NCBI GenBank assembly: GCA_934466475.1
Contig: CAKSLI010000004.1
Coordinates: 62,001-126,000 of the forward strand
From: an uncultured Oscillospiraceae bacterium
Lineage (GTDB): Bacteria > Bacillota > Clostridia > Oscillospirales > Ruminococcaceae
Length of the DNA stretch: 64,000 nucleotides
Reading direction: 5' to 3'
A model generated the notes under the pieces. It was given only the letters and a program-made list of their open reading frames with translations. It did no database searches and was not told the DNA's origin. Of the stretch, positions 9,638-25,625 are shown piece after piece. The position numbers and the translations under genes are program-made. How positions within the stretch are numbered: the stretch's first letter is position 1; each line of letters begins with the position of its first letter.

Positions 9638-9651
9638 GACGTAACCTCCTG

Positions 9652-10611
9652 TCATAATGTGCGGGAGCTTCTGGAAGTATTGCCCGCGTAGTCGAAAAGT
9701 CCATCGTTTTTCTCCTCCAGCGCCTTGATGATGTGTAGCGTAAATTCGTTGTACGGCGTGGGAATGCCGAGCTCCTTTCCCATTCTTACGATAGCGCCGG
9801 AGAACATGTCGATTTCCGTATGGCGGCCGGCGTCAAGGTCCTGGAGGGTGGAATAACGGGCGGAGGGAGGCACCAGGCTTCCGCGGGTGGACGAGGCGTC
9901 AGCCCTGCTCATATCTATTCCCTTTGCGGCGGCTATTGCTTCAAGCTCCTGCCGCAGCCCATTGCTTATCGCCTTCATGTGTTCGCTGTCCTGGTAGCAG
10001 CCGACTCCTACGCCAACGATAGCCTGCGGCAGATTGTTGCACACATTCAGCCGGAATTTGCTCCATATTTCCTCGCGTATGAATTCTGTGCTGCGGTAGT
10101 GTATTCCGGTGCCCTCAAAGAGAGTTTCCACCGCGCGCACTCTTTCGCTGTCAAACGGAGCGCTGACCTCGCCGAACACTATTCCTACCGTGGTTTCCGG
10201 ATCGAAGCGGTAGCCGTTGCCATCCTTGTGGGAGGCAACCTTTATCAGCGAGTACAGAACATGCTCGCCGCCTATTTTTCCGGCGATGATCTCCTCGCTG
10301 TCAACGCCGTTCATCAGGCTCATCACGGTCGTGTTGCCACCGACAGCCGCGCCGATGGAATCCAGCGCCCCGGGGAGCGCGCCGTATTTCAGCGCGACAA
10401 TGAGAAGATCTGCGCCGTGCGCCTCCTGCGGGGTCCACACCTGCGGACGGTATACCTTTCCGTTTATTGTGCAGCCGTCTTTTTTCAGACGCTCTGCGCG
10501 CCCGCCATCGGCAATTACGCCGAGCTCAATGTTTTCACGCCCGGAGAGCCCCCATATCATATATGACCCGACTGCTCCGGCACCAAGGATTGCAACTTTT
10601 TTTATTTTCAT
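9652..10611 (-). CDS. panE: 2-dehydropantoate 2-reductase (ketopantoate reductase) family protein
   Basis: A 319-residue NADPH-dependent reductase of the PanE/ApbA family. The N-terminal Rossmann motif is ILGAGAVGSYM near residues 8-18. The C-terminal helical domain carries EEIWSKFRLNVCNN with the catalytic Lys of the family. PanE converts ketopantoate to pantoate for coenzyme A synthesis, but many paralogs act on other substrates, so the symbol is tentative. RBS AAGGAG precedes ATG 10611. A strong promoter lies upstream, directly abutting a 230-bp repeat element. Confidence 0.8.
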   Translation of the reverse strand: MKIKKVAILGAGAVGSYMIWGLSGRENIELGVIADGGRAERLKKDGCTINGKVYRPQVWTPQEAHGADLLIVALKYGALPGALDSIGAAVGGNTTVMSLMNGVDSEEIIAGKIGGEHVLYSLIKVASHKDGNGYRFDPETTVGIVFGEVSAPFDSERVRAVETLFEGTGIHYRSTEFIREEIWSKFRLNVCNNLPQAIVGVGVGCYQDSEHMKAISNGLRQELEAIAAAKGIDMSRADASSTRGSLVPPSARYSTLQDLDAGRHTEIDMFSGAIVRMGKELGIPTPYNEFTLHIIKALEEKNDGLFDYAGNTSRSSRTL

Positions 10612-10642
10612 TCTGATTTTCTCCTTTGAAATTGCTGATTAT

Positions 10643-10671
10643 ATTATAGCATTGCGGCGGAGCAGTGTCAA
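10643..10671 (-). promoter_or_regulatory. Promoter of panE-tam operon, abutting repeat copy B
   Basis: Minus strand TTGACA (10671-10666) and TATAAT (10648-10643), 17 bp spacing. The repeat begins at 10672, and the 4-bp target duplication TCAA is part of the -35 box. Confidence 0.85.
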
Positions 10672-10901
10672 GGTAACCTCTAAAAACCGGTTTGAAAAGT
10701 GAAAATGGGTAGAGTGCGCCGAATGCGATGAAAGCCGACGAAGTAAGGCTGTATGCCTTACGAGGAGGTGCAACACGATGTTGCAAAGCGAAATAACCGG
10801 GCGACGGCATGGACGCCGTCGCATCAGAAATTTCGCTCGTTGAAAGAAGCAGGCGGTGTGCTATACACATTTTCACTCAAACGAGGTTTTTAGAGGTTAC
10901 C
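10672..10901. mobile_element. 230-bp MITE-like element, copy B (inverted)
   Basis: Same element as 8601-8830 in reverse orientation, with ends GGTAACC and GGTTACC. The flanks TCAA (10668-10671) and TCAA (10902-10905) form a 4-bp direct duplication, which points to transposition. It lies between the divergent panE and alcohol dehydrogenase promoters. Confidence 0.88.
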
Positions 10902-11001
10902 TCAATAAATATATCGCACGCCGCACTAAAATTCCCGGGCTGCGGCACAATGCCTGGATTCCGCATGAGACTGCGGTTTTACGCGTTCCTTGAAAAAATG
11001 C

Positions 11002-11030
11002 TTGCATTTCTGCGCGAATTGTGATATCGT
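11002..11030 (+). promoter_or_regulatory. Probable promoter of alcohol dehydrogenase gene
   Basis: TTGCAT (11002-11007) and TATCGT (11025-11030), 17 bp spacing; a moderate match. Confidence 0.5.
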
Positions 11031-11090
11031 ATATTTGCAGGGAAAAACTGCGTCAGACAGAATTGTGCAGAACAACAAGGAGGAATCATC

Positions 11091-12224
11091 ATGGATTTTC
11101 AGATCGTGCTGCCGGGAAAAACAATAGCCGGCAAGGGCGCATTATCACGCGCAGGACTTGAGAAATACGGAAGCAGACCGCTCATCGTGACCGGAAAATA
11201 TACCGCGAAGTCACCGGCAGTCCGGGAGCTCCTGAAATATGCTCCGGACGGCGTGGTTTTTGACGGAATAACCGGCGAACCCACCGTTGACATGATAAAC
11301 GCGGGCGTTGCGGCGTACCATGACAATTCCTGCGACCATGTCATCGGAATAGGCGGCGGAAGCGCCCTTGACAGTGCCAAGGCGATAGCCGCGATGTCCG
11401 TTCTGGGCGGGAATATCGCGGACTATATGGGGCGCGGGATAGACGGAGAATTTCCGCCGATGATACTTGTTCCGACCACCGCCGGGACTGGCTCCGAGGC
11501 GACAAAATTCACGATAATCACCGACACGGAAAAGGACGTGAAAATGCTGCTGAAGGGCGACAAACTCCTGCCGGAGCTTGCAGTGCTGGATTATTCCTAC
11601 ACGATATCCTCGCCGAAGTCCGTCACTGCGGCAACAGGAATGGACGCGCTCACGCATGCGATCGAGAGCTACACCTCCCGCAGGGCGAACCCGATAACCG
11701 ACACATTCGCGCTTTCCGCCCTGAAGAGGATCTTCGCGAACCTGCCCACGGCGTATAACGAACCAGAAAACGAGGCTGCAAGGGAACAAATGCTCATCGC
11801 CGCTTACGAGGCAGGAGTCTGCATAAACAACGCCTCCGTTACCATTGTGCACGGAATGAGCCGTCCTATCGGCGCGCTGTTCCATGTCCCGCACGGAATT
11901 TCCAACGCAATGCTGGATATAAAGTGCCTGGGATTCGCAGTGCAGGGTGCTCCCGGGAAATTTGCAGAGGCCGCCCGGGCTGTCGGCGCTTCCGATAAGC
12001 AGGACGATACCGCCGCTGCACAGGATTTCCTCGCGGCGCTCGAAAAGCTGTGCCGCGCCGTTGAGATACCCACGCTTGCAGAATACGGAATCGACCGTGA
12101 GAGGTTCTTTGCGGCAATGGACAAAATGGCGGACGACGCCCTTGCAAGCGGAAGCCCTGCCAATACTATAAGGGAAGTCACCAAGCAGGATATTCTGGAT
12201 ATTTACGCTTCTCTGTGGGATTAA
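11091..12224 (+). CDS. Iron-containing alcohol dehydrogenase
   Basis: A 377-residue group III alcohol dehydrogenase, cytoplasmic, reducing aldehydes with NAD(P)H or the reverse. The N-terminal NAD domain has IGIGGGSALDSAKA near 84-97 and PTTAGTGSEAT near 127-137. The metal-binding C-terminal domain has MDALTHAIESY and two further His positions in VHGMSRPIGALFHVPHG. Substrate cannot be read. Its place next to the pyrimidine cluster, which yields malonate semialdehyde, makes that aldehyde (to 3-hydroxypropionate) a testable candidate. RBS AAGGAGG. Confidence 0.88.
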   Translation: MDFQIVLPGKTIAGKGALSRAGLEKYGSRPLIVTGKYTAKSPAVRELLKYAPDGVVFDGITGEPTVDMINAGVAAYHDNSCDHVIGIGGGSALDSAKAIAAMSVLGGNIADYMGRGIDGEFPPMILVPTTAGTGSEATKFTIITDTEKDVKMLLKGDKLLPELAVLDYSYTISSPKSVTAATGMDALTHAIESYTSRRANPITDTFALSALKRIFANLPTAYNEPENEAAREQMLIAAYEAGVCINNASVTIVHGMSRPIGALFHVPHGISNAMLDIKCLGFAVQGAPGKFAEAARAVGASDKQDDTAAAQDFLAALEKLCRAVEIPTLAEYGIDRERFFAAMDKMADDALASGSPANTIREVTKQDILDIYASLWD

Positions 12225-12230
12225 ATCCAT

Positions 12231-12266
12231 GTGCCGCGGCACAACGGTTTCATGTGCCAGAGGCAC
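12231..12266. repeat. Two tandem GTGCC-N-GGCAC palindromes
   Basis: GTGCCGCGGCAC (12231-12242) and GTGCC-AGA-GGCAC (12254-12266) are both preceded by CAT and followed by AA. They lie about 40-70 bp upstream of the carbamoylase promoter and could be regulator sites, or simply part of the terminator region. Confidence 0.5.
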
Positions 12267-12272
12267 AAATTC

Positions 12273-12295
12273 AGCCGTTTTCCGGCTTTTTTTGC
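12273..12295 (+). terminator. Terminator of alcohol dehydrogenase gene
   Basis: AGCCG and CGGCT with a TTTTC loop, followed by TTTTTTT. Confidence 0.75.
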
Positions 12296-12303
12296 GAAAA
12301 AGG

Positions 12304-12332
12304 TTGACACAGCACAATATTCACGATATAAT
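12304..12332 (+). promoter_or_regulatory. Promoter of carbamoylase gene
   Basis: TTGACA (12304-12309) and TATAAT (12327-12332), 17 bp spacing. Confidence 0.88.
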
Positions 12333-12344
12333 CAATACATAAAG

Positions 12345-12391
12345 CAACGGCGCTTGGAACTCACGGAGTTTCAGGCGCCGTTTTCTTTATC
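12345..12391 (+). terminator. Hairpin plus T-run in the carbamoylase 5' leader (possible attenuator)
   Basis: The arms CGGCGCTTGGAACTC and GAGTTTCAGGCGCCG form a 15-bp stem with two G-U pairs and an ACG loop, followed by TTTTCTTT. It starts within about 10 bases of the expected transcript start and precedes the ATG by about 35 bases. Confidence 0.7.
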
Positions 12392-12423
12392 AGACAGAAA
12401 TTCAAAAGCAAAGGAGAGTTTTT

Positions 12424-13686
12424 ATGTACACTTGCAGCTACGACAGAATGAAGGACAAAATCGAAACTTTCAGCAAATTCGGCGACGCGGGGCACGGCGG
12501 TATCACACGTTATTCCCTTTCGCCGGAGGCTATTCAGGCGAGAAACGAGTTCCGCCGCAGAATGGAAGCTATCGGCGCCACTATCGAGGTGGACGATGTA
12601 GCTTGTATGTACGCAACGCTCCCCGGTTCTGACCCGGACGCAAAGCGCATCGTTATGGGCTCCCATGTGGACAGCGTAAAGAACGGCGGCAACTACGACG
12701 GAATCCTCGGCGTAATGAGCGCCATGGAGGTCCTGGAAACGGTAGCCGAGCACAATATTCCGCATAAGCATCCGCTCACCGCGATGATCTGGACAAACGA
12801 GGAAGGCTCCCTCTACCCGCCGGCAATGATGTGCTCCGGCATTATCTGCTACGATTATCTCCCGGAGGACATCAGAAGCAAGTTCAGATTCGAGGACATG
12901 ATGGCTTCAAAGAGCATTCTGGATAACAAGTCCACATTCGGCGAGGCACTGGAGAGATCCGGATTCAAGGGCGATAAGAAATACCGCATTTCCCCTGAGA
13001 AATACATGTACATGTTCGAGACCCACATTGAACAGGGGCCTATCCTCGAGGACGCCGGAAATGATATCGGCGTAGTCGACTGCGTTCTCGGAATGTTCAA
13101 TTACCGCCTGAAGTTCTACGGTCAGACCACCCATGCAGGAACATTCCCCATGCCGAAGAGAAAGGACGCGTTCCTTGCGGCTTCTGAGGCGCTGTGCTAC
13201 CTCCACGAGGAGATAGACAAGCTGGGATATTCCGACCTGGTTTACACTACCGGCGAGGTCGTATGTCACCCCTGCGTGCACACCTGCGTTCCGGATTTCT
13301 TCGATTTCTCGTTTGACGCGCGCCACGAGGATCCCAAGGTGCTTGAAAAGGTGCTCGCGATCGTCAAGAGCTGCGCTGAAAAGACCTGGGCAGGCTGCAC
13401 CTGCGAGGTAGTCAAGGCATGGAACCGCGACACTGTTTACTATGATAAGAAGCTTGTGGGCTATGTTAAGGCTGCCGCCGAGGAGACTGGTATCAAGCAC
13501 CAGTATATCCACTCCGGCGCCGGTCACGACGCACAGTTCTGCGCTTACATGATCCCGACAACGATGGTGTTCGTACAGAGCAAGGACGGACTTTCCCACT
13601 GCGAGAAGGAGTTCAGCTCCGTGGAGCACTGCACTGAGGGTGCAACGGTAATGCTCAACGCTGTGCTCAAGGCAGATCAGGACTGA
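12424..13686 (+). CDS. N-carbamoyl-beta-alanine amidohydrolase / carbamoylase (M20 family)
   Basis: A 420-residue metal-dependent amidase of the hydantoinase/carbamoylase family. It should hydrolyse N-carbamoyl-beta-alanine to beta-alanine, CO2 and ammonia, the third step of reductive pyrimidine breakdown. Metal ligands are visible: GSHVDSV with His81, GGNYDGILGVM with Asp92, TNEEGS, and ETHIEQGPILE, plus a final His in SGAGHDAQF. It is transcribed separately from the importer and dihydropyrimidinase but lies in the same cluster. Activity on carbamoyl amino acids in general is the alternative. Confidence 0.88.
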   Translation: MYTCSYDRMKDKIETFSKFGDAGHGGITRYSLSPEAIQARNEFRRRMEAIGATIEVDDVACMYATLPGSDPDAKRIVMGSHVDSVKNGGNYDGILGVMSAMEVLETVAEHNIPHKHPLTAMIWTNEEGSLYPPAMMCSGIICYDYLPEDIRSKFRFEDMMASKSILDNKSTFGEALERSGFKGDKKYRISPEKYMYMFETHIEQGPILEDAGNDIGVVDCVLGMFNYRLKFYGQTTHAGTFPMPKRKDAFLAASEALCYLHEEIDKLGYSDLVYTTGEVVCHPCVHTCVPDFFDFSFDARHEDPKVLEKVLAIVKSCAEKTWAGCTCEVVKAWNRDTVYYDKKLVGYVKAAAEETGIKHQYIHSGAGHDAQFCAYMIPTTMVFVQSKDGLSHCEKEFSSVEHCTEGATVMLNAVLKADQD

Positions 13687-13708
13687 GTATCGGCAAAATA
13701 ACAAGATG

Positions 13709-13740
13709 TTCCGGGCAGCTTCGGCTGTCCGGAATTTTTA
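13709..13740 (+). terminator. Terminator of carbamoylase gene
   Basis: TTCCGGGCAGC pairs with GCTGTCCGGAA around a short TTC-type loop and is followed by TTTTTA. Confidence 0.9.
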
Positions 13741-13743
13741 TGC

Positions 13744-13988
13744 CATGTGGTTCTTAAATGAATAATGCATATAACAGAAAATTCATTTTCGCCGAGTGAT
13801 TTCTTTCGGGAGATTCAACACAAGGATCCTCGTTTTCTGGTGTGGACTGAGTAGAATATGTGTGCTTCAGCACATATAATGTAGTTATGCGGAAGCACAA
13901 AACCGCATTGCTGTGTATATATTACATATATAGACATGGATTTCACGGAAATGTTATTGTACAATTATCCTAAATGTTTATCAGCACA
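13744..13988. other. 245-bp intergenic stretch with small dyads
   Basis: No gene seen. It is AT-richer than its surroundings and contains two small hairpins, GTGTGCTTCAGCACAT-like near 13860-13880 and ATGCGG/CCGCAT near 13888-13910. These could be regulator sites for the downstream importer promoter; nothing else recognised. Confidence 0.4.
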
Positions 13989-14017
13989 TTGACAGAAATC
14001 ACATTATGCTGTATACT
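13989..14017 (+). promoter_or_regulatory. Promoter of the pyrimidine importer operon
   Basis: TTGACA (13989-13994) and TATACT (14012-14017), 17 bp spacing. The transcript would carry a leader of about 130 bases with a 33-codon frame and a terminator. Confidence 0.85.
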
Positions 14018-14044
14018 TGTATCAAGAACAAAGGAACAAAAGAA

Positions 14045-14146
14045 ATGAATAAATCAAATCTGAATCCTGCAAGTTCAACAAGAAACCGAGATCAGGGCAA
14101 TGGCGCCGAAGATGATGCTATTGCCCTGATTTTTTATAAGGAGTGA
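14045..14146 (+). CDS. Possible 33-codon leader peptide spanning a terminator
   Basis: ATG 14045 follows AAAGGA by about 9 bases. The frame runs through the leader terminator (14091-14136) and stops with TGA at 14144-14146, six bases before the ATP-binding protein gene. Translation through the hairpin would prevent termination and couple the leader to the operon. The predicted peptide is polar (begins MNKSNLNPAS and ends ALIFYKE) with no obvious run of one amino acid. It may also be chance. Confidence 0.35.
   Translation: MNKSNLNPASSTRNRDQGNGAEDDAIALIFYKE
14091..14136 (+). terminator. Leader terminator (attenuator) before importer operon
   Basis: ATCAGGGCAAT (14091-14101) pairs perfectly with ATTGCCCTGAT (14120-14130), followed by TTTTTT. 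It sits between promoter and first gene, immediately before the RBS AAGGAG, so it must be read through for the operon to be expressed. Confidence 0.85.
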
Positions 14147-14151
14147 TCAAT

Positions 14152-14928
14152 ATGGCAAACGAGAAAACAGAGATCATGCTGGACAGCATCGGCATGGTGT
14201 ACAAGGATCAGGGCGGAAACGATGTAACAGCGCTCACCAATGTAACGCTGGACATCAAGAAGGGCGAGTTCATCTCGCTGCTCGGTCCCTCGGGCTGCGG
14301 CAAGACAACGCTCCTTAGAATTATCGCGGATCTGCTCCACCCGACTTCCGGAAAGATAACGGTCGGCGGGGTAACTCCCCGGGAAGCCCGGCTGGCGCAG
14401 CGATACGGCATAGTGTTCCAGAGCCCGGTGCTCTACGACTGGCGCACAGTCCGCAGGAATGTGATGCTCCCGCTGGAGATAATGCACGTCCCCAAAGATG
14501 AGCGCGAGGACATCGCGGACAGCATGCTGGAAATGGTGGGGCTGACGAATTTCGCAAACCACTATCCGAATCAGCTTTCCGGCGGCATGCAGCAGAGAGT
14601 CGGGATCGCAAGGGCGCTGGCGATACGTCCGGAGATACTTCTGATGGATGAGCCGTTCTCAGCTCTGGACGAATTCACCCGGGAAAAGCTCCACATCGAC
14701 CTGCTGAAGATATGGCGCAAGACCAACAAAACCGTAATTTTCGTAACTCACAACATTTCCGAGAGCGTATTCCTTTCTGACCGCGTGTGCGTATTATCCC
14801 CGCACCCGGGACGCCTTTCGGCGGTAGTCGATATCGACCTGCCGAGGCCCCGGACGCTGGATATGACGGACACTCAGCATTTCACAGAGCTTGTCGCAAA
14901 GGTAAGGAACAGCTTCGAGGGAGTATAA
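14152..14928 (+). CDS. ABC transporter ATP-binding protein (NMT1/Tau/Ssu type)
   Basis: A 258-residue ATPase of the nitrate/sulfonate/taurine and thiamine-precursor importer group. Walker A is GPSGCGKTT, the Q-loop follows in VFQSPVLYDWRTV, the signature is LSGGMQQRVG, and Walker B is ILLMDEPFSALDE. ATG 14152 is chosen because AAGGAG lies 8 bases upstream; an in-frame GTG at 14143 overlaps that site. It heads an operon with two permeases, a binding protein and pyrimidine-degrading enzymes, so a pyrimidine or related heterocycle is the likely cargo (inference). Confidence 0.9.
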   Translation: MANEKTEIMLDSIGMVYKDQGGNDVTALTNVTLDIKKGEFISLLGPSGCGKTTLLRIIADLLHPTSGKITVGGVTPREARLAQRYGIVFQSPVLYDWRTVRRNVMLPLEIMHVPKDEREDIADSMLEMVGLTNFANHYPNQLSGGMQQRVGIARALAIRPEILLMDEPFSALDEFTREKLHIDLLKIWRKTNKTVIFVTHNISESVFLSDRVCVLSPHPGRLSAVVDIDLPRPRTLDMTDTQHFTELVAKVRNSFEGV

Positions 14929-14940
14929 GGAGGGAACGGC

Positions 14941-15792
14941 ATGACAACGGCAAAAACGGCGCGGAGAGGCCCCCTCCCGGCACTGAAGCGCTTCGTACAT
15001 TCAAAACACATGGTGACGCTGGTCTGGATACTCGGCATAGTGGTCATCTGGGAGATTTTCGCCTGTATCGTTGCGGCGACAAAGCGCACTCCGGTGAACG
15101 TCCTGCCGCACCTGTACGAGATCATCTGTTCGTTTTTCAGCGACAAGAAAGTCACCGGAAAGATGACGATGATAGAGCTCATCGGAACCGCCTGCGGCGA
15201 GACGCTCTCCCGCGCGGGGATCGGCTTCGCTGCCGGGATCGCGGCGGGCTACATACTCGCTCTGCTGATGAACCTTTCACGGGTAGTCGAGAAGATAGCG
15301 TTTCCATATCTGATGATAATTCAGATGATACCGATACTCGGAATGGCTCCGATAATCCTTTCGATAACCGGCGATATCAATTCCGCGAGAATCGTCATCG
15401 CAGCGATACTTACGTTCTATCCGGTGTCTACCAACGTGCTGGCGGGTTTCCGGTCGGTCGAGAGGGAAAAGCACGAGCTGATGTACAGCTACGCGGCTAA
15501 TAAGTTCCAGCTTTACACGAAAACGCTCATTCCGGCGTGCATTCCGTATTTCTTCACAGGACTGAAGATATCCGCGCCAATGGCGATAACCGCTTCCATA
15601 CTGGTAGATACGCTCCAGGGCGGCAACGGACTTGGCTGTATGCTTTCGCAGTCCCTCAAGGGCGGAATGACCCGTCTGGTTTTCTGGGACATAGTGCTGA
15701 TAAGCGCAGTCATAGGCATTCTGAGCTTCGTGCTGATGGGGCTTATCGAAAGGCTCCTCTGCCCGTACAAGCGAAACAAGACCAGCGACTGA
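14941..15792 (+). CDS. ABC transporter permease (NMT1-type importer), first of two
   Basis: A 283-residue inner-membrane permease with about six helices. The cytoplasmic coupling segment near residues 190-220 reads FRSVEREKHELMYSYAANKFQLYTK in two parts and resembles the EAA loop of BPD-type permeases. It is 12 bases after the ATPase gene and 12 bases before a second, diverged permease, so the importer probably has a heterodimeric channel. GAGGAGGG-type ribosome binding sites precede both permease genes. Confidence 0.88.
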   Translation: MTTAKTARRGPLPALKRFVHSKHMVTLVWILGIVVIWEIFACIVAATKRTPVNVLPHLYEIICSFFSDKKVTGKMTMIELIGTACGETLSRAGIGFAAGIAAGYILALLMNLSRVVEKIAFPYLMIIQMIPILGMAPIILSITGDINSARIVIAAILTFYPVSTNVLAGFRSVEREKHELMYSYAANKFQLYTKTLIPACIPYFFTGLKISAPMAITASILVDTLQGGNGLGCMLSQSLKGGMTRLVFWDIVLISAVIGILSFVLMGLIERLLCPYKRNKTSD

Positions 15793-15804
15793 GGAGGGAT
15801 ACAG

Positions 15805-16605
15805 ATGAAATCAAAGAAATGGCTGGGACTGCTTTCAAGCGCAGGACTTCCGCTTCTTTTCGGGGTGGTGATATTCGTCCTGTGGCAGACTCAGGCGCTT
15901 CATTCGTGGCTTGGGACTGATACGATAACGCTTCCGCTTCCAACGCGAATCGGCGAGATAATCTCACAGAACAGCGACAGCATAGGAAATCAGGTGCAGA
16001 TGACCCTGATAGTCGCCCTCGGCGGACTGGCGGCGGGCAGTATCCTCGGGTATCTCATAGCCGTTGTGGCTTCGATATTCCGTAAGTGGGGCGCCGGCGG
16101 ACTTACGATAGTTTCCGCGTTCAACGCGATACCGATAGTGGCTCTCGCCCCGGTAATAAACAACTGGACGCGCGATGTCAGCACGGATGTTTCAGTTAGA
16201 AGCACGCTTGCGAAGATAATAGTGGTCACGATATCCTGCACGGCGGCGATGAGCGTGAACGCATTCCGCGGGCTGACCGAGCTGAAGCCGTTCTCCGAGG
16301 ATCTGATGACCTCTTACGCTGCTCCGAAGATCGTGGTATTCACTAAGCTGAGGCTGCCGAACTCGCTGCCATACGTTTTCACGGCGCTGAGGGTCAGCGT
16401 TCCGGCGAGCGTTATCGGCGCGCTGGTGACCGAGTACTTCGCGGAGGACACGGTCGGCGTAGGAAGACAGATCCGCGAGAACATCGTAAAGGGACAATAC
16501 CCCACGGCGTGGGCTTACATCGCGACTGCATGCGCGATAGGCATAGGAATGTACATTGTTCTTATGCTGGTTGAAAGAATGGTGCTTAAACGGAGAAAAG
16601 CATAA
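15805..16605 (+). CDS. ABC transporter permease (NMT1-type importer), second of two
   Basis: A 266-residue BPD-type permease with six predicted helices, paralogous to the preceding one. The EAA-like segment is FRGLTELKPFSEDLMTSYAA and is followed by KLRLPNSLPYVFTALRVSVP, typical of the TauC/SsuC branch. It is expected to pair with the other permease and the ATPase to import the ligand delivered by the lipoprotein encoded next. Confidence 0.88.
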   Translation: MKSKKWLGLLSSAGLPLLFGVVIFVLWQTQALHSWLGTDTITLPLPTRIGEIISQNSDSIGNQVQMTLIVALGGLAAGSILGYLIAVVASIFRKWGAGGLTIVSAFNAIPIVALAPVINNWTRDVSTDVSVRSTLAKIIVVTISCTAAMSVNAFRGLTELKPFSEDLMTSYAAPKIVVFTKLRLPNSLPYVFTALRVSVPASVIGALVTEYFAEDTVGVGRQIRENIVKGQYPTAWAYIATACAIGIGMYIVLMLVERMVLKRRKA

Positions 16606-16666
16606 GGCTCCGTTTGGTATAGAACAAAAGGGGGATTCCCCGAATAAAGAAAGGCAGGTACACACT

Positions 16667-17860
16667 ATGAAAGCAGACAGAAAGAGATTTTTACTTGCAG
16701 GAGTTGCAGCGATAATGGCTTGCGCGCAGTTTACCGCTTGTTCCGGAGGGAACTCCAGCACCGGCAGCACGGCTTCCGTCAGTTCTGCTGGAAGCACTGC
16801 GTCAGACGCTTCCCCAGATGAAAGCAGCTCCGCGGTTGAGGAAAGCTCCGCAGCGGAATCCGCTGGCGCAATGAGCCACGAGGACATCATCAGGTCTGCC
16901 GCTGCTGAGGGCACGGTAGGAAACTGGGGTCTCGGCAACGAGTACGAGATACAGGCGCTACTGACAAAGTACGGACTTCCCACTGATTATATTACCATGG
17001 ACTTTACAATGGATCAGTTCGACAGCGACAGCGTAAAGCTGGCTTCCGCCATGACATACAACGAGCTCGGTCTGGTAAAGAACGACTATGACGGCGGCTA
17101 TGGCTACGGCGATTCCGTGAGCATCATCGACATGAACGATGAGGGCGTTGCAATGCTGGAGGATAACCTGTTCACCTCCAAGGCGTTCGCAGAGGCAAAT
17201 CCGAACACTGTAAAGGCGTTCGTTTCCGCTTCAATGAAGGGCTGGGCTTACGCCTGTGAGCACCCGGACGAGGCGGCTGAGATCGTGTTCGAGGCTGGCT
17301 CCTCCGTATCGGCCGACCACCAGGCGTACATGGCGTCCGAGGTGGCGAAGCTTGTAACCACCGACATGAACGGAAACACAGTTTCCGCCGCTGACGTAGG
17401 AAACATGGACGAGGCTGCAATGCAGCAGACCCTCGACCTGGCAAAGCAGTACATCATTCTTGAGGACAGCACCGCCAAGGATAAGCTGGCTTCCCTCACG
17501 CTGGACGATATCTGCAGCACGGATTTCCTGACCTATGACCCTGAAACGGACGGCGCGCCTGAAAAGACTTCCGTTTCCGTACAGCTCAAGTGGCTGCCGC
17601 AGGCTCAGTTCATGGGCTACTATGTTGCTCAGGCAAAGGGCTATTACGATGAAGTCGGTCTTACCGTTGACATCATCTCCGGCGGCGGTGATATCTCCGA
17701 GACAACGGCGGTTTACAACGGCACAGTTGATTTCGGCGTAACATGGGTCTCCAACCTCATCAACGCCAACGCCGGCGGCATGGAGCTCCTGGAGGTCGCT
17801 CAGGTATATCAGAGATCCGGTCTGGTTCTCGTTTACAAGAACTCCAACTACGGCGGCTGA
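16667..17860 (+). CDS. NMT1/THI5-type substrate-binding lipoprotein with halves in swapped order (apparent circular permutation)
   Basis: A 397-residue lipoprotein: signal peptide with lipobox FTAC (Cys25), then a Ser/Ala/Glu-rich linker to about residue 80. Normal family members start with a segment like VQLKWLPQAQFMGYYVAQ and reach GNWGLGNEYEIQALL only after about 110 residues. Here the order is reversed: the second half (GNWGLGNEYEIQ... to FLTYDPETDG) occupies about 82-298, and the family's N-terminal segment (from about residue 302) comes last and ends at SNYGG. The frame is open and the reading is clean. Start ATG 16667 is chosen by the signal peptide. A degenerate hairpin repeat begins immediately after the stop. 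Function: presents the ligand to the two permeases. Confidence 0.85.
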   Translation: MKADRKRFLLAGVAAIMACAQFTACSGGNSSTGSTASVSSAGSTASDASPDESSSAVEESSAAESAGAMSHEDIIRSAAAEGTVGNWGLGNEYEIQALLTKYGLPTDYITMDFTMDQFDSDSVKLASAMTYNELGLVKNDYDGGYGYGDSVSIIDMNDEGVAMLEDNLFTSKAFAEANPNTVKAFVSASMKGWAYACEHPDEAAEIVFEAGSSVSADHQAYMASEVAKLVTTDMNGNTVSAADVGNMDEAAMQQTLDLAKQYIILEDSTAKDKLASLTLDDICSTDFLTYDPETDGAPEKTSVSVQLKWLPQAQFMGYYVAQAKGYYDEVGLTVDIISGGGDISETTAVYNGTVDFGVTWVSNLINANAGGMELLEVAQVYQRSGLVLVYKNSNYGG

Positions 17861-17940
17861 CAGACGGGCTGGCGATAAAGGCGCATCTCCGTCGTCAGAC
17901 ATACAATGGCAGGCGAAAGGCTTATGTTAAGTTGATTTTC
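17861..17940. repeat. Degenerate copy of the 106-bp hairpin repeat
   Basis: CGATAAA, CATCTCCGTCGTCA and ATGGCAGGC-AAAG align with the left half and loop of the copies at 7484, 24029 and 29285, but the right arm is largely lost. It begins at the base after the stop codon of the binding-protein gene. Confidence 0.6.
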
Positions 17941-17991
17941 CAAAAATAACAGAACATGTTTCATTCCCGGCAGATCTCCGCCGCGGCGGGG

Positions 17992-18042
17992 ATTTGTCGG
18001 AAAGCCCGGCGGGGTGCGGCTCCGCCCGGTTTTCCGACAAAT
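17992..18042 (+). other. Strong stem-loop between binding-protein and dihydropyrimidinase genes
   Basis: ATTTGTCGGAAA pairs with TTTCCGACAAAT, and the enclosed GC-rich sequence extends the hairpin (CCGG...CCGG). There is no T-run after it, so it looks like a processing or mRNA-stability element setting different levels for transporter and enzymes. Confidence 0.65.
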
Positions 18043-18077
18043 GTGAATTTGCCAACATTATACGAGGAGGTTTTCTT

Positions 18078-19439
18078 ATGGATATGATCATCAGGAACGG
18101 CACAGTCGTGAACGCGACCGGTTCCTTCAGAGCTGACGTTGCAGTAAAGGACGGGAAGATCGCCGCTGTCGGCAGTATTCCTGATATGCCCGGCGCAAAG
18201 GTAGTGGACGCAGCCGGAAAGCTGGTGCTCCCGGGGGCGATAGACGCGCATACTCACCTTGCAATGCCTTTCGGCGGCACGGTGTCCTCAGACGATTATT
18301 TCGCGGGAACAAGAGCGGCTGCCTGCGGCGGTACGACCACCGTGTTCGACTTTGCGCTCCAGGATTTTAACGAGACGATGACCGAAACGTTCAACCGCCG
18401 GAACGCCCTTGCGGCTCCGGACGCAGCGGTGGACTATTCGTTCCATATCGGTGTAAAGGATATCCACGGCGAGCTGCTTGACAGCATCAAGGACGCGTGT
18501 GATATCGGGATCACCTCCTACAAGGTGTTCATGGTGTATGATTTCGGCGTAAAGGACGGCGTGTTCTATCAGCTTCTGGCGAAGTCCAAGGAGTTCGGAG
18601 CGCTCATCGCGGTACACGCCGAGAACAACGAGCTTGTGAACACTCTCACGGAAAAATACATCAGCGAGGGCAAGACCAGCGCCTGGTATCATTACATGAG
18701 CCGTCCGGAGTTCGTTGAGGGCGAGGCGGACGAGCGCGCGATAAACCTTGCGAGGGCTGCAAAGGCTCCGCTGTATATCGTTCATCTTGCAAACAAGCAG
18801 GGCGTCGAGGCTGTCACAAAGGCGAAGGACGAGGGTCTGGAGATCTACGCAGAGACCTGCCCGCAGTACCTTGAATTCACCAGCGATGTCTACAAGCGCG
18901 AGGACGGCAGGAATTTCGTATGCTCGCCGCCCATGAAGGGCAGGGAATCCCAGGACGCTATCTGGGAAGCGATAAAGCGCGGGGACATCGATACCATTGC
19001 TACCGACCACTGCCCGTTCCAGCAGAGCGAAAAGGACTGGGGTCTGGACGACTTCCGGAAGATACCGAACGGTTGCGCCGGGATCGAGAATATGTACCCG
19101 TATATGCTGGGCAAGGCGAATGACGGCGTTATCAGCTTCGAAAAGGCTGTCGAGCTCTGTTCCGCCAACCCGGCGAAGATTTTCGGCTGTACAGAAAAGG
19201 GCGTGATAGCCCCCGGCAAGGACGCAGATATCGTTATCTACGACCCCGCGAAGAACTTTACTATCCACCAGGAAAATATGCACTCCGACTGCGACCACAC
19301 GATCTGGGAGGGAATCGAGGTTCACGGCTACCCCGTGCAGACATACTCCCGCGGCAGACTGGTGTTCGACAACGGCGAGTTCGTTGGCGAACGCGGCTGG
19401 GGCAGGTTTGTGAAGTGCGCAAAGCACACGGCAAAATAA
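18078..19439 (+). CDS. hydA: Dihydropyrimidinase / D-hydantoinase
   Basis: A 453-residue amidohydrolase that opens 5,6-dihydrouracil or dihydrothymine to the N-carbamoyl-beta-amino acid, step two of reductive pyrimidine degradation. Binuclear zinc ligands are visible: His58 and His60 (DAHTHL), the carboxylated Lys149 in SYKVFMVYD, His in AVHAENNEL and YIVHLANKQG, and Asp in ATDHCPF. Length fits the family. ATG 18078 follows GAGGAGG; the upstream frame extends into the hairpin region and is not coding. It is followed 39 bases later by the dihydropyrimidine dehydrogenase gene. Confidence 0.93.
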   Translation: MDMIIRNGTVVNATGSFRADVAVKDGKIAAVGSIPDMPGAKVVDAAGKLVLPGAIDAHTHLAMPFGGTVSSDDYFAGTRAAACGGTTTVFDFALQDFNETMTETFNRRNALAAPDAAVDYSFHIGVKDIHGELLDSIKDACDIGITSYKVFMVYDFGVKDGVFYQLLAKSKEFGALIAVHAENNELVNTLTEKYISEGKTSAWYHYMSRPEFVEGEADERAINLARAAKAPLYIVHLANKQGVEAVTKAKDEGLEIYAETCPQYLEFTSDVYKREDGRNFVCSPPMKGRESQDAIWEAIKRGDIDTIATDHCPFQQSEKDWGLDDFRKIPNGCAGIENMYPYMLGKANDGVISFEKAVELCSANPAKIFGCTEKGVIAPGKDADIVIYDPAKNFTIHQENMHSDCDHTIWEGIEVHGYPVQTYSRGRLVFDNGEFVGERGWGRFVKCAKHTAK

Positions 19440-19478
19440 CAGCCGCCTATAAAATAACTCGTGCAGGAGGTTATCAGC

Positions 19479-20963
19479 ATGAAATACGGAAATCTTATTT
19501 TAAACAGTGAATCGGCGCGGTGTATGCTGTGCTCTGACGCCCCTTGCACGGCGGCGTGCCCGGCGGGTTTCGACCCGGCGCGGTTCGTAAGGGCGGTCAG
19601 GTTCGAGGATCCTGCCGTCGGAGCCGGGTACATTGAATCAGCAAGGTGCGCGGAATGCTCCGGCGAATGCGAGAAAGCCTGCCTGCACTTTGATTCCCCG
19701 GTAAAGATACGCGAAATGGCGGCGGCGGCTCCGGAGCCGGTAAAGGCGGACGATCTGGACGCGGATCTCTCAATGGAGTTCTGCGGCGTAAGGTGCGAGA
19801 ATCCGTTCTTCCTGTCGTCATCGGTGGTGGCGAGCGGCTACGAGATGTGCGCGAACGCGCTGAAAGCCGGCTGGGGCGGAATCGTATACAAGACCATAGG
19901 CTTCATAAAGCCGGACGAGGTTTCCCCGAGATTTGACGCGATAGGCAAGGAAAGCACGCCGTTTGTGGGTTTCAAGAATCTTGAGCAGATCTCCGATCAC
20001 CCGCTGAAGGAGAATCTCGAAATACTGCGCCGCTTAAAGCGGGATTTTCCGACAAAGGTGATCGTTTCCTCTATAATGGGCAGCACCGAGGAGGAATGGA
20101 CGGAGCTTGCAAGGCTCTCCGAGGAGGCGGGCTGCGACATCATCGAGTGCAACTTCTCCTGTCCGCAGATGGTAGGGGAGGGGCTCGGCAGCGACGTCGG
20201 TCAGAACCCGGAGCTCGTAAGGGCATACACCGCCGCGGCAAAGCGCGGAACGAAGCTCCCGGTGCTTGCGAAGATGACCCCGAACATCGGCAACATTGAG
20301 GTCCCGGCGATAGCTGCTAAAGAGGGCGGCGCGGACGGGATCGCCGCGATAAACACAATAAAGAGCCTGACGCGTATCGACCTTGATACGATGGTCTCCT
20401 GCCCGGGCGTCAGCGGAAAGTGCTCGGTTTCAGGATATTCCGGAAAGGCTGTGAAGCCTGTTGCACTGCGGTTCATTCACGATATGGCGGTCTGCCCGGA
20501 GCTTTCCGGAATGCCGCTGAGCGGTATCGGAGGGATCGAAAGCTGGCATGACGCGCTGGAATTCATCGCCCTCGGCTGTACGAATATCCAGATAACCACC
20601 GCGGTAATGCAGTACGGCTACCGGATAATCGACGACCTGATCTCGGGAACGAAAGCGTACCTTAAATCAAAGGGCATGACAAGGCTGAGCGGGCTCACCG
20701 GAACGGCACTTGCGAACGTAGTTCCGGCGGACGACCTGGACAGAAGCACCGTGGTATATCCGATATTCGACAAGGAAAGCTGCGTTGGCTGCGGAAGATG
20801 TTACATCTCCTGCATGGACGGCGGGCATCAGGCAATAGCCATTGGCGAGGACAGAAAGCCGCACCTCTCCGGAGGAAAATGCGTCGGCTGCCTGCTGTGT
20901 ACGCTCGTCTGTCCCACCGGCTCGATATCCCACAGCAAGCGGGTGAAGAAGCCCGGAAGATAG
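19479..20963 (+). CDS. preA: Dihydropyrimidine dehydrogenase PreA-like subunit with extra N-terminal Fe-S domain
   Basis: A 494-residue protein for reducing uracil or thymine to the dihydro form. Residues about 1-75 carry eight Cys ([13 protein letters not shown] and [12 protein letters not shown]), like the N-terminal [4Fe-4S] domain of mammalian DPD and of PreT. A dihydroorotate-dehydrogenase-like FMN barrel follows; the catalytic loop is [18 protein letters not shown]. The C-terminus holds two [4Fe-4S] ferredoxin motifs ([22 protein letters not shown]). The FAD/NADPH domains are absent and no preT is in the window, so the electron donor may be ferredoxin. ATG 19479 chosen by AGGAGG; GTG 19461 overlaps that site. 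Confidence 0.88.
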
Positions 20964-20982
20964 ATCCGAAAGGAGGGCGTTT

Positions 20983-22194
20983 ATGGCTATCACTCTTGCA
21001 AGAATATGTGCGAACGCCGAAAAGACCTACGGCATGAAGCTCATCGCCGGAAAGGCGGGAATGGAGAATTATGTCCGCTGGGTACATATCGTTGAGGACA
21101 GCGAGGTGCCCGACTTCATGCACGGCAACGAGCTGGTGTTCACCACCGGGATCGGTCACAAGGGAAACGACTGGCTGCTGGATTTCGCACATCACCTTAA
21201 AGAAAGGAACGCTGCCGGTATCGTTGTGAATATCGGTCCGTACATAAACGCCGTCCCCAGGGAGGTCGCAGAATACTGCGAGCGCAGTGCGCTGCCGCTT
21301 TTCGTGGTGCCGTGGACGGTGAGGCTTATCGACCTGACCTACGACTTCTGCCACAGGATAGTCAGCAACGAGGAAAGCGAGACCAGCCTTGCCGGAGCTT
21401 TCAGAAACCTGTTCTTTGCTCCGGGTCAGCGTGACGGCTACGCCCCCGTGCTGGAGCGCCGCGGATTCCACGATGTGAGCGGCTACACGCTTCTTGCCGC
21501 GGAGCTCTCCCACCCGGATAAACCGGGCAGCGGTGATGAATGGCGCAGCATGAGATTCCTTGTGCGGAAAATATGCGCCAGCACGCAGTATCCCTCCTGC
21601 ATATTCATTCAGGAGAACTACCTGGTGATAGTCCGGCAGCATTTCTCCGCACATGAGGCAGGGAAGCTCGCCGAACAGCTCGCGGCGGCTGTCACCGAAA
21701 ACTACACCGAGCCGGTGGGAGTGCACATCGGTATTTCGGACAACGGGCTCGGCTATGACGGGATTCATTCCTGCTACCACGAGGCGGTCTCCGCCATGAG
21801 GCTTGCGGCAATGAAGAAAGCCACGGTCATGCACTATCACGACATAGGCGTTTACAAGCTGCTTTTCGGCGTGGAAAGCTCGCGTATCCTCTCGGACTAC
21901 GTTGACAGCACTCTCGGCAGGCTGCTGGACTATGACGCCAAGAACAACACCGACTGCGCGGAGCTGCTGCGCTGCTACTTCGAGAACGATTGCAGCGTAA
22001 AAGAGGTCGCTGATATCTTCGGCGTTCACCGCAACACGGTGAACTACAAGCTGAAACAGATACGCGAGCTGCTTGACAGCAGCTTCAGCGACGAGGATAA
22101 AATGAATCTGCTTCTGGCTTTCCGGGCAAAGGAACTGCTCAACATGGAAAACTCAAAGCTGATAATGGAGGACGATTCTTATGAATGCAACTGA
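20983..22194 (+). CDS. PucR family transcriptional regulator
   Basis: A 403-residue cytoplasmic regulator. The N-terminal PucR domain (about 8-125) contains VHIVEDSEVPDFMHGNELVF in the family style; a middle GGDEF-like sensing region follows, and the C-terminus has the HTH_30 motif VKEVADIFGVHRNTVNYKLK near 341-360. PucR-type proteins control purine or other heterocycle catabolism. Its position inside the operon, with its last 14 bases overlapping the aminotransferase gene, makes it the likely pyrimidine-responsive activator of the cluster. Confidence 0.9.
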   Translation: MAITLARICANAEKTYGMKLIAGKAGMENYVRWVHIVEDSEVPDFMHGNELVFTTGIGHKGNDWLLDFAHHLKERNAAGIVVNIGPYINAVPREVAEYCERSALPLFVVPWTVRLIDLTYDFCHRIVSNEESETSLAGAFRNLFFAPGQRDGYAPVLERRGFHDVSGYTLLAAELSHPDKPGSGDEWRSMRFLVRKICASTQYPSCIFIQENYLVIVRQHFSAHEAGKLAEQLAAAVTENYTEPVGVHIGISDNGLGYDGIHSCYHEAVSAMRLAAMKKATVMHYHDIGVYKLLFGVESSRILSDYVDSTLGRLLDYDAKNNTDCAELLRCYFENDCSVKEVADIFGVHRNTVNYKLKQIRELLDSSFSDEDKMNLLLAFRAKELLNMENSKLIMEDDSYECN

Positions 22195-23503
22195 GATCAA
22201 AACCAACCACACCAAGTACAATTTACAGTCCTGGTCAAAGCAGGGCGGTCTGAACCCTATCCCTGTGGAGCGCGGCGAGGGCATTTACTTCTGGGACTAT
22301 GACGGAAACCGCTACACAGATATGTCCAGCCAGCTGGTCAACCTGAATGTCGGTTTCGGCTGCCGCCCCATTATTGACGCGATAAAGGAGCAGGCGGAAA
22401 AGTTCTGCTTCGTTGGACCCAGCCACGCCTGCGAGAGCCGTTCAAAGCTCGCCGAAATGGTAGTCGGTCTCATGCCGGACAACATCGCGAAGGTGTTCTT
22501 CACCAACGGCGGCGCTGACGCAAACGAGAACGCAATCAAGATGGCGAGAATGTACACCGGCAGGAAAAAGGTGTTCTCCCGTTACAGAAGCTACCACGGT
22601 TCAACGTTCGGCGCAGGCAACCTGACCGGCGAGCCGAGAAGATATCCCCTGGAGCCTGGCATACCCGGTTTCGTGAAGTTCTTCGATCCGTATATGTACC
22701 GCGATAATCTTCCGTTCGCAAGCGAGAAGGAATACAGCGAGTACTATGTGAATAAGCTCCGCGAGCAGGTCATCTACGAGGGTCCCGACACGGTCGCAGC
22801 TATCGTAATGGAGACAATTACAGGCTCCAACGGCATCATTATCCCTCCGGAGGGCTACCTTGCTGGCGTTCGCAAGATCTGCGATGAGTTCGGCATAATG
22901 ATGATCTGCGACGAGGTAATGGCGGGCTTCGGGCGCACCGGAAAGATGTTCGCCTTTGAGAACTTCGGCGTAAAGCCTGATATCGTAAGCTTCGCGAAGG
23001 GCGTTACCTGCGGCTATGTACAGCTCGGCGGCGTTGCAGTCAGCAGAAAGATCGCGGACTATTTCGATGACAACGTGCTCCAGTGCGGACTTACATACAG
23101 CGGACATCCGCTTGCCTGCGCAGCCGGAGTTGCCTGCCTGAACTACTACAAGGACAACAATATCCTCGACAACGTAAACAAGAGCGGCAAGGCGCTCGGC
23201 GAGATCCTCGAGGAACTCAAGGCAAAGCACAAGTGCGTTGGCGATGTTCGCTACATCGGTCTGTTCTCCGCAATCGAGCTGGTAAAGGACAAGGAGACAC
23301 GCGAGCCCCTGGTGCCCTACGGCGGCGACAAGCTGGGCGTAATGGGCGGTATCATCGGAAAGCTCAAGGCAAAGAAGTTTATGACATACTACCACGAGAA
23401 CATGATACTTGTATGCCCGCCGCTCATCATCACTCCGGAGCAGCTCCGCGAGGAAATGGTGAAGGTAGACGAGGTACTCGCCGAGGTGGACGCTTCACTC
23501 TGA
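22181..23503 (+). CDS. Class III aminotransferase, probable beta-alanine:pyruvate (omega-amino acid) transaminase
   Basis: A 440-residue PLP enzyme. The PLP lysine is Lys273 in SFAKGVTCGY; the upstream Asp is in MICDEVMAGFGRTG, and FTNGGADANENAIKMAR is the cofactor-phosphate region. In this operon it would transfer the amino group of beta-alanine or beta-aminoisobutyrate to an oxoacid, giving (methyl)malonate semialdehyde, the last cluster-encoded step. GGAGG lies within the PucR gene before ATG 22181. Other omega-amino donors are possible. Confidence 0.88.
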   Translation: MNATEIKTNHTKYNLQSWSKQGGLNPIPVERGEGIYFWDYDGNRYTDMSSQLVNLNVGFGCRPIIDAIKEQAEKFCFVGPSHACESRSKLAEMVVGLMPDNIAKVFFTNGGADANENAIKMARMYTGRKKVFSRYRSYHGSTFGAGNLTGEPRRYPLEPGIPGFVKFFDPYMYRDNLPFASEKEYSEYYVNKLREQVIYEGPDTVAAIVMETITGSNGIIIPPEGYLAGVRKICDEFGIMMICDEVMAGFGRTGKMFAFENFGVKPDIVSFAKGVTCGYVQLGGVAVSRKIADYFDDNVLQCGLTYSGHPLACAAGVACLNYYKDNNILDNVNKSGKALGEILEELKAKHKCVGDVRYIGLFSAIELVKDKETREPLVPYGGDKLGVMGGIIGKLKAKKFMTYYHENMILVCPPLIITPEQLREEMVKVDEVLAEVDASL

Positions 23504-23524
23504 ACAGGAAGGGACTGATACAGC

Positions 23525-23938
23525 ATGGCTAATTCGGAGCATTACGCAGAAGCACCGACCGTAAAGCTGGAGGATTATATTCCGGCAAAGCTGTTCCGCA
23601 CGGTGCATCGCACGGAAGCCGAACTGCCCGGCGGCATAACGGAGGTCAGGGTAATAATCGACATCGAAAGGCCGCTGGCGAAGAAGCTGTCCTTCAGGAC
23701 GAGCAGCAGCGGCAGAATACACGGCTTTGTCCGTATGAACGATCTGCTGAAGTCGATCAACACCAGGGCTGACAAAAGTTCCACTATCCGCCGGATAACC
23801 GTAAACGACTGGGGAACGAAGGTTCTCATGGTCATAGAAATGGAGGATGACAGCGAGAAAGCGTTCTTTGCCCCGGCGTCACAGCTCATAAATCTTCTGG
23901 AAAACTGCCGCAGGGCACCTCAGCAGTCGGCTAAGTAA
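23525..23938 (+). CDS. Uncharacterised protein, last gene of pyrimidine cluster
   Basis: A 137-residue soluble protein I do not recognise. It has no signal peptide, no Cys pair and no membrane segment; a basic stretch (FRTSSSGRIHGFVRMNDLLK) lies in the middle, and an alternating beta-like region (VLMVIEMEDD) follows. It begins 21 bases after the aminotransferase with RBS AGGAAGGG-like and ends at a strong terminator, so it belongs to the operon. An accessory or ligand-sensing role is possible. Confidence 0.75.
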   Translation: MANSEHYAEAPTVKLEDYIPAKLFRTVHRTEAELPGGITEVRVIIDIERPLAKKLSFRTSSSGRIHGFVRMNDLLKSINTRADKSSTIRRITVNDWGTKVLMVIEMEDDSEKAFFAPASQLINLLENCRRAPQQSAK

Positions 23939-23948
23939 TTAATATAGT

Positions 23949-23990
23949 ATATCCCCGCAGCTCTGCACAGCGAAACTGCGGGGATATTTC
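23949..23990 (+). terminator. Terminator of pyrimidine operon
   Basis: ATATCCCCGCAG pairs perfectly with CTGCGGGGATAT, followed by TTTCTGT. Confidence 0.88.
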
Positions 23991-24004
23991 TGTCACAAAT
24001 GAAC

Positions 24005-24028
24005 AACAGGCGCTCCATTGGCGCCTGT
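24005..24028. repeat. Short hairpin beside repeat copy 2
   Basis: ACAGGCGC and GCGCCTGT form an 8-bp stem around TCCATTG. It directly precedes the 106-bp hairpin repeat. Confidence 0.6.
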
Positions 24029-24134
24029 CAGACTGTCGATAAACCCTCATCTTCGTCGTCACTCCGCATTATGGCAGGCACAAAGCCTAGCTATAATGCG
24101 GGTTCCTAGAATCTGAGGGCTTCTCAACAGTCTG
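24029..24134. repeat. 106-bp hairpin repeat, copy 2
   Basis: Same layout and length as 7484-7589. Inner stem here is CCGCATTATGG/CTATAATGCGG, differing from copy 1 on both arms so that pairing is kept; CCCTCA/TGAGGG replaces CGTCA/TGACG in the middle stem. The AGGCACAAAGCCT tip is unchanged. Confidence 0.85.
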
Positions 24135-24181
24135 ATTTTTCACTTTTTCTTCACAAATTCGCCATATATTTGTAATAAGTA

Positions 24182-24210
24182 TTGACAATTCCGTTCGTAT
24201 ATTGTACAAT
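24182..24210 (+). promoter_or_regulatory. Promoter of the rnf operon
   Basis: TTGACA (24182-24187) and TACAAT (24205-24210), 17 bp spacing, about 100 bp before rnfC. The leader between is AT-rich with no terminator seen. Confidence 0.85.
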
Positions 24211-24312
24211 ATAGGTATATACGTTTTTATATAGGTGTAATATATTTACAGTATATCAGACAGCTCCGTAAGGAGTAAATTTACGAAATCAAGGAGAAGG
24301 GGTTGGTTCTAT

Positions 24313-25617: not shown

Positions 25618-25625
25618 GGTGCAAC

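Follow-up and report, generated by a model that had tools for sequence, protein, structure and literature searches.

We report that a gene in a 64,000-nucleotide stretch of DNA from an uncultured Oscillospiraceae bacterium (assembly GCA_934466475.1, contig CAKSLI010000004.1, positions 62,001 to 126,000; hereafter the window) in all likelihood encodes a working, lipid-anchored substrate-binding protein (SBP) of an ABC importer, in which the NMT1/THI5 fold has been circularly permuted, and which belongs to a reductive pyrimidine (Pyd) operon and most likely serves uracil, thymine or a close relative of these. We give this reading a probability of roughly 0.87. The gene (16667..17860, + strand) had been singled out in an original prediction as a circularly permuted NMT1/THI5 lipoprotein, and this is borne out by the order of its sequence segments, by the prediction of a single fold and by trees of its two halves, both of which lead to the same canonical relatives.

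Segment order and predicted fold

The open reading frame starts with ATG, encodes 397 amino acids and contains no internal stop. The PF09084 (NMT1/THI5-like) profile matches the protein in two stretches with 107.6 bits against a cut-off of 20.5, which by score places it in this family; NMT1, NMT1_2 and New_glue are its only Pfam matches at E ≤1, and no NCBIfam family reaches its cut-off (SsuA_fam scores 31 against 163.5 bits). A comparison of the matching stretches showed that: 1) the best PF09084 stretch, residues 313-393, corresponds to profile positions 2-82 (of 216), so that the start of the family sits at the C-terminus. 2) Relative to the canonical SBP 4nmy, residues 302-369 are equivalent to chain residues 7-73, and residues 70-224 to chain residues 98-256. 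3) Seven distinct PDB sequences match at E ≤0.01, and the 3 PDB matches that were aligned residue by residue have the two stretches in the order opposite to that of the window protein. Separate alignment of the halves to NMT1 proteins, proposed as a check in the prediction, accordingly returned the reversed and not the normal order against both PF09084 and 4nmy. Given this reversal, the protein departs from the canonical NMT1/THI5 architecture, in which the segments follow the profile, and we term it a circularly permuted homologue rather than a canonical member. Searching all six frames of the window with a profile for each half (E ≤1) recovered only the 16667-17860 gene, and no normal-order copy lies beside it there.

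From its N-terminus the protein comprises a signal peptide (16667..16741, + strand, as are all features of the gene) with a lipobox-like FTA|C, which, together with Cys25, we read as a lipoprotein signal; a Ser/Ala/Glu-rich tether of residues 26-69 (16742..16873), mostly predicted to be disordered (pLDDT <50 for residues 4-66); a new N-terminal helix in the model, residues 71-80 (16877..16906), whose position is probably equivalent to the canonical (S/T)PADLKGKK loop; the segment normally second in the fold, residues 82-289 (16910..17533), as delimited by the 4nmy and half alignments; a linker of about 9 residues, 290-298 (17534..17560), that bridges the former C- and N-termini and has limits that are approximate in the alignments; the segment found at the start of the mature protein in canonical members, residues 299-391 (17561..17839), delimited by PF09084, 4nmy and the half alignments and ending in the strand SGLVLVYK; and, from the reading frame and a comparison of the ends of relatives, a short new C-terminal tail of 6 residues, 392-397 (17840..17857). 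The two segments first proposed, 82-298 and 299-397, are therefore retained as such, but their limits contract to about 82-289 and to 299-391 once the linker and the tail are set apart. The signal, judged by inspection and by Cys25, which is kept in at least 90% of 50 aligned proteins, and the adjacent ATPase and permease genes are those of an ABC importer SBP.

In such a permutation the short linker would have connected the original C- and N-termini, and the new ends would lie in a loop flanked by LVLVYK, which we read as the first strand of the hinge, and VGNWG, read as the strand with which the second lobe begins. The chain would now run from the anchor and tether through the second lobe, the rest of the first lobe, the linker and the start of the first lobe to the hinge strand. 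What the permutation would change is the anchor, which would enter at the second lobe; the protein would presumably close as other Venus-flytrap SBPs do and deliver its ligand to the two permeases.

The AlphaFold model, another check suggested at the outset, predicts one confident fold, and its best ordered PDB match is Bacillus subtilis OpuAC (2b4l/2b4m). This likeness is structural only: OpuAC belongs to another family, its ligands are betaines, it is about 12% identical in the aligned part, and the OpuAC family is not among the Pfam matches of the window protein at E ≤1. The model suggests that the cut point of OpuAC is likely to be equivalent to that of the window protein, but not exactly so, because the root-mean-square deviation between the two is high. 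In contrast, the solved NMT1-type structures, namely THI5, the FAMP-binding 3ix1 protein and 4nmy, are of the same family by sequence, but have the canonical order and names that refer to thiamine-pyrimidine rather than Pyd metabolism.

Conservation and distribution of the permuted order

Relatives were collected in three sets: the best 80 of 201 relatives' loci from a scan of one genome per species; a first homologue set of 121 proteins, made up of the query and the best 120 of 3201 matches; and a canonical comparison set, the best 120 of 6851 matches to a Paenibacillus-type canonical query. The second-half segment lies ahead of the first-half segment in 80/80 loci, always in one reading frame, and the permuted order is found in 121/121 proteins of the first homologue set, while the canonical query returned the canonical order in 120/120. 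The swap within a single open frame thus extends well beyond the window, and the comparison with relatives that the prediction had proposed gave the same order. Read to the first in-frame stop, the 80 loci end in an SGLVLVYK-type strand followed by 1-7 residues, the exception being locus L001 with 12. An alignment of 50 permuted proteins has a mean column identity of 60%, and PF09084 matches all 50 at E ≤0.001, the window protein included. The Nei-Gojobori ratio of nonsynonymous to synonymous change (dN/dS) for the window gene is 0.14, 0.11 and 0.12 against L001, L002 and L003 respectively (L004-L006 are at or near synonymous saturation), and the gene is accordingly under purifying selection.

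The arrangement might be thought to reflect an assembly join, a chimaera or a decayed gene, and rearranged contigs do exist: in L001, on a contig of a metagenome-assembled genome (MAG), the layout is locally inverted or misassembled, with the ATPase and permease 1 genes downstream of the SBP gene on the opposite strand and a longer, different SBP tail. However, an assembly join is not credible, because the same arrangement recurs in every one of the 80 loci, which come from many studies and include cultured species; decay is opposed by the dN/dS values in all three unsaturated comparisons. We rule out an artefact on the strength of this conservation across loci and proteins. A search for other copies in 16 genomes of permuted relatives gave just two weak partial matches, one of them to a canonical NMT1 protein.

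The 80 loci are mostly from Clostridia (Ruminococcus bromii, Anaerosporobacter, Catenibacillus, Sporobacter and many MAGs), with 7 from spirochaetes (L060-L063, L067, L073 and L075). The permutation is not a one-off, but marks a large conserved clade in many Clostridia and some spirochaetes. We further surveyed overlapping genome samples, each including its centre genome, with matches at E ≤1e-5 for the phylum of genome G005 and ≤1e-15 for all others, and with at most 4 to 8 candidates scored per genome, so that weaker paralogues may be missed. The permuted gene was found in 2/299 genomes of the phylum of G005, 7/391 of its class (in G482 in two pieces on two contigs) and 14/392 of its order, in 7/394 of the order of G001, and in 1/198 of the phylum of G012 (a Treponema sp. 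locus), where the match is the centre genome itself. Pooled, these samples hold 26 different genomes with the permuted form and 15 with its canonical-order sister; only G666 has both. In G666 the permuted SBP (L150) lies in a Pyd operon and the canonical relative (L149) in an ABC gene set, with no Pyd genes in the 15.5 kb read around the latter, a pair useful for separating ligand from topology.

Operon context and probable ligand

The permuted SBP gene is embedded in a run of genes on the same strand. Upstream of it lie an iron-containing alcohol dehydrogenase, the probable malonic semialdehyde reductase PydE (11091..12224; gene name as in PMC7332683), a hydantoinase/carbamoylase-family amidase, probable PydC (12424..13686), and the ABC transporter ATPase (14143..14928) and two BPD_transp_1 permeases (permease 1, 14941..15792; permease 2, 15805..16605). 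Downstream lie the dihydropyrimidinase PydB (18078..19439, with the start codon picked by eye), which scores 490.5 bits against the equivalog cut-off of 393.25 bits of NCBIfam TIGR02033; a PydA/PreA-type dihydropyrimidine dehydrogenase (19461..20963; PreA, 569 against 335 bits); a PucR-type regulator (20983..22194); and an aminotransferase, probable PydD (22181..23503). With PydA, PydB, PydC and the downstream enzymes this is a reductive pyrimidine operon, in which the roles of the amidase, aminotransferase and alcohol dehydrogenase are putative, and its gene set, as read from the sequence, is what the full reductive pathway needs. The association is widespread: PydA or PydB is found at E ≤1e-20 in 77/80 permuted loci.

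Since Pyd enzyme genes adjoin the SBP gene, uracil or thymine is our best guess for the ligand, and we consider it a probable one. Another cargo, such as a hydantoin, a ureide or a thiamine precursor, might be envisaged, as ligands vary among NMT1/THI5 relatives, one of the PDB matches of the window SBP is named for the binding of a formyl-aminopyrimidine, Pyd genes are absent from the stretch read around the canonical relatives L147-L149 (on contigs of 6.4 and 9.9 kb for L147 and L148), and the enzyme family names alone leave hydantoins possible. Against these points stand the above-threshold dihydropyrimidinase and PreA next to the SBP gene and the recurrence of their counterparts in the permuted loci, and we regard a non-pyrimidine cargo as unlikely, though a serious contender to pyrimidine bases.

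Phylogeny and canonical-order sisters

For phylogenetic analysis each protein was split in two, and the halves were aligned separately and joined in canonical order. In a tree of these joined sequences (50 permuted, 21 canonical and 12 outgroup rows) the permuted rows all group in a single clade (98/98), which adjoins 20 of the 21 canonical rows (95/84); the remaining row, L132, groups with the outgroup. The spirochaete rows fall in three places in this tree (L062 by L039, L063 by L024, and L060, L061, L067 and L073 together), which suggests that the spirochaete copies were acquired in several transfers. Trees of the halves used 51 permuted, 28 canonical and 10 outgroup rows; three long rows of the outgroup were removed and L132 was assigned to it. 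In both trees a single branch separates the permuted proteins from all others, with SH-aLRT 100 for the N-half and 79 for the C-half. The identity of the window SBP to its twelve closest canonical rows is 50-53% over the N-half and 41-45% over the C-half, against 29-33% and 20-24% for the six most distant NMT1 rows. Because both half trees and the identities of both halves point to the same relatives, the two halves most likely descend from one canonical-order ancestor.

The neighbouring clade is formed by canonical-order NMT1/THI5 SBPs of Pyd-type operons from Paenibacillus and its kin (P0122-P0241; L128-L131, L146, L180, L182-L184 and L186). They share with the permuted SBPs conserved residues including W309, D342, W87, E94, N132 and E133, but retain the usual segment order and an intact AGI.SPADLKGKK loop. 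Q306, D342, E94, Y131, N132, E133, N157 and D166 are among the residues kept in both architectures (at least 95% of permuted and at least 90% of canonical rows) but falling short of 70% in the distant outgroup; such shared residues are consistent with one ligand common to both architectures. At 17081-17116 (residues 139-150) the permuted proteins have a longer loop, N.YDGGYGYGD, in place of the shorter ESGI-type loop of the canonical sisters. Among 16 canonical loci (a count that leaves out the outgroup row L132), 14 have the order ATPase-permease-permease-SBP, and the ten named above have PydA and/or PydB matches in the stretch read, 38-64% identical to those of the window (only 38-41% in L128-L131); L185 has a PydB-like match of 37%, and L187, L147, L181 (short contigs), L148 and L149 have no PydA/PydB match in the stretch read. 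As the canonical sisters occupy similar operons, their gene content indicates that one transporter type exists with two SBP topologies.

The permeases of the canonical sisters are 34-47% identical to those of the window, whereas those of the permuted loci are 52-94% identical, bar one 45% part-match in L048. The permease tree was built from 39 permuted rows, one in two of the 78 usable permuted loci with L001 and L002 left out, and from 14 canonical rows, with L147 and L181 omitted. It divides by SBP order in a single change (support 100), which indicates that the permuted SBP goes with its own permease lineage.

Weighing the evidence and origin of the permutation

Several observations weigh against the reading of a permuted pyrimidine-importer SBP: 1) the fold comparison used PDB matches alone, the deviation from OpuAC is the high one noted above, and a canonical-order control, L102, modelled from a single sequence, reached a pLDDT of 34. 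2) Three permuted loci on contigs of 6.6-7.2 kb (L032, L058 and L061) have no PydA/PydB at E ≤1e-20, although a looser cut gives a PydB match in L032. 3) The ATPase tree shows no division by SBP order (4 changes, of which 2 are forced by starred branches). 4) In the half trees the C-half support for the permuted group is only that 79, the outgroup branches are weak (56 and 66), and the canonical rows of the N-half tree do not fall on one side of a branch. 5) No duplicated or split intermediate was seen among the proteins classified, separately encoded halves not having been searched for as such. The canonical rows of the N-half tree (2 changes) and the several low supports would also suit a fusion of complementary halves from two different NMT1-type genes in place of a permutation of one ancestor. 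This we hold to be quite improbable: the closest relatives are the same for both halves and their identities match (L186, 53% and 44%; L180, 52% and 45%, far above those of the most distant NMT1 rows), and the halves complement each other with no overlap.

Permutation of a single ancestor, which we prefer, would have come about by an in-frame tandem duplication followed by loss of the outer halves. Fission of the gene and re-fusion in reverse order would lead to the same product, and that no protein with a repeated half is among those classified speaks for it; on the other hand, no separately encoded halves were noticed, though no search was aimed at them, and the duplication route does not require two halves to be secreted separately. 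We consider fission somewhat unlikely, and duplication the better account. Three proteins (G1435, G919:C151 and G1294), whose longer matches from query residues 265-277 onwards resembled a duplicated intermediate, proved to have the ordinary canonical order.

Other features of the window

No FAD/NADPH subunit gene was identified among the neighbours of the window PydA, which in this respect recalls the ferredoxin-dependent PydAc of Clostridium chromiireducens; in the main text describing that enzyme the words "transporter" and "ABC" are absent (PMC7332683). The Pyd genes are followed by RnfC and RnfD genes (24313-26576) and further open reading frames to about 29270, and an Rnf complex could plausibly be linked to a ferredoxin-dependent PydA. 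A strong hairpin (17992-18042) lies between the SBP and PydB genes; its outer stem has 15 bp and its GC-rich inner stem 8 bp. The 217-nt gap gives a better fold than 200/200 shuffles (z -3.3), and a 17-base arm of the hairpin has a weaker third match at 20040-20056 on the - strand. The hairpin might be an attenuator or a processing site through which the SBP and the enzymes are made at different levels; Rfam has no match at gathering threshold in window positions 9500-26000. Elsewhere, 39794-41983 encodes a 729-aa protein with a C-terminal DUF3825 domain.

Known permuted binding proteins and implications

Natural permutation of SBPs is already known in two other families, OpuAC/ProX and TpMglB-2. 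The former comprises circular permutants among the glycine betaine-binding proteins, including OpuAC 2b4l (PMC2395249). The latter is represented by Treponema pallidum TpMglB-2 (Tp0684) of "Cluster Bc", which according to PMC4990184 is, like the window protein, a tethered, naturally permuted SBP of treponemes and Gram-positives, but has a Type I / Cluster B sugar-binding fold, a poorly conserved permuted part and an added fourth hinge crossing. The window protein lies outside Cluster Bc, with no sugar-binding profile among its Pfam matches at E ≤1; the VIA-align list also contains no MglB-type row, a point to which we give no weight. The original prediction had held that no permuted member was described: this stands for NMT1/THI5 proteins, for which no report was recognised by title or abstract opening among the matches listed from the open-access PMC literature, but not for SBPs of other families. 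Given that literature, the permuted NMT1/THI5 SBP is a new instance of a known phenomenon.

The authors of the TpMglB-2 study regard the permutation as a possible adaptation to tethering (PMC4990184). This, and the presence of that family too in treponemes and Gram-positives, make it a testable idea rather than a result that circular permutation recurs as an adaptive reworking of SBPs tethered to the membrane, with the NMT1/THI5 case as the third, independent one after OpuAC and TpMglB-2. The anchor would have shifted from the beginning of lobe 1 to that of lobe 2, next to the hinge, each lobe would become one continuous stretch, and the form would have been fixed with its own permease lineage because it suits the geometry of anchoring or docking in Clostridia and spirochaetes; we put this forward tentatively, as a doubtful proposal.

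In practice, filters on profile order or coverage will misread permuted NMT1/THI5 SBPs. A permuted SBP with a close canonical sister in the same operon type is a good test case for natural permutation: since ligand, transporter type and pathway are apparently the same, a comparison of the two topologies can directly address the effect of chain order, anchor position and hinge continuity on closing, docking and transport. For the organisms themselves, the permuted SBP and its importer would represent a probable pyrimidine uptake system in gut-type anaerobes, linked to Pyd enzymes that are of interest for the breakdown of fluoropyrimidines (PMC11036815).
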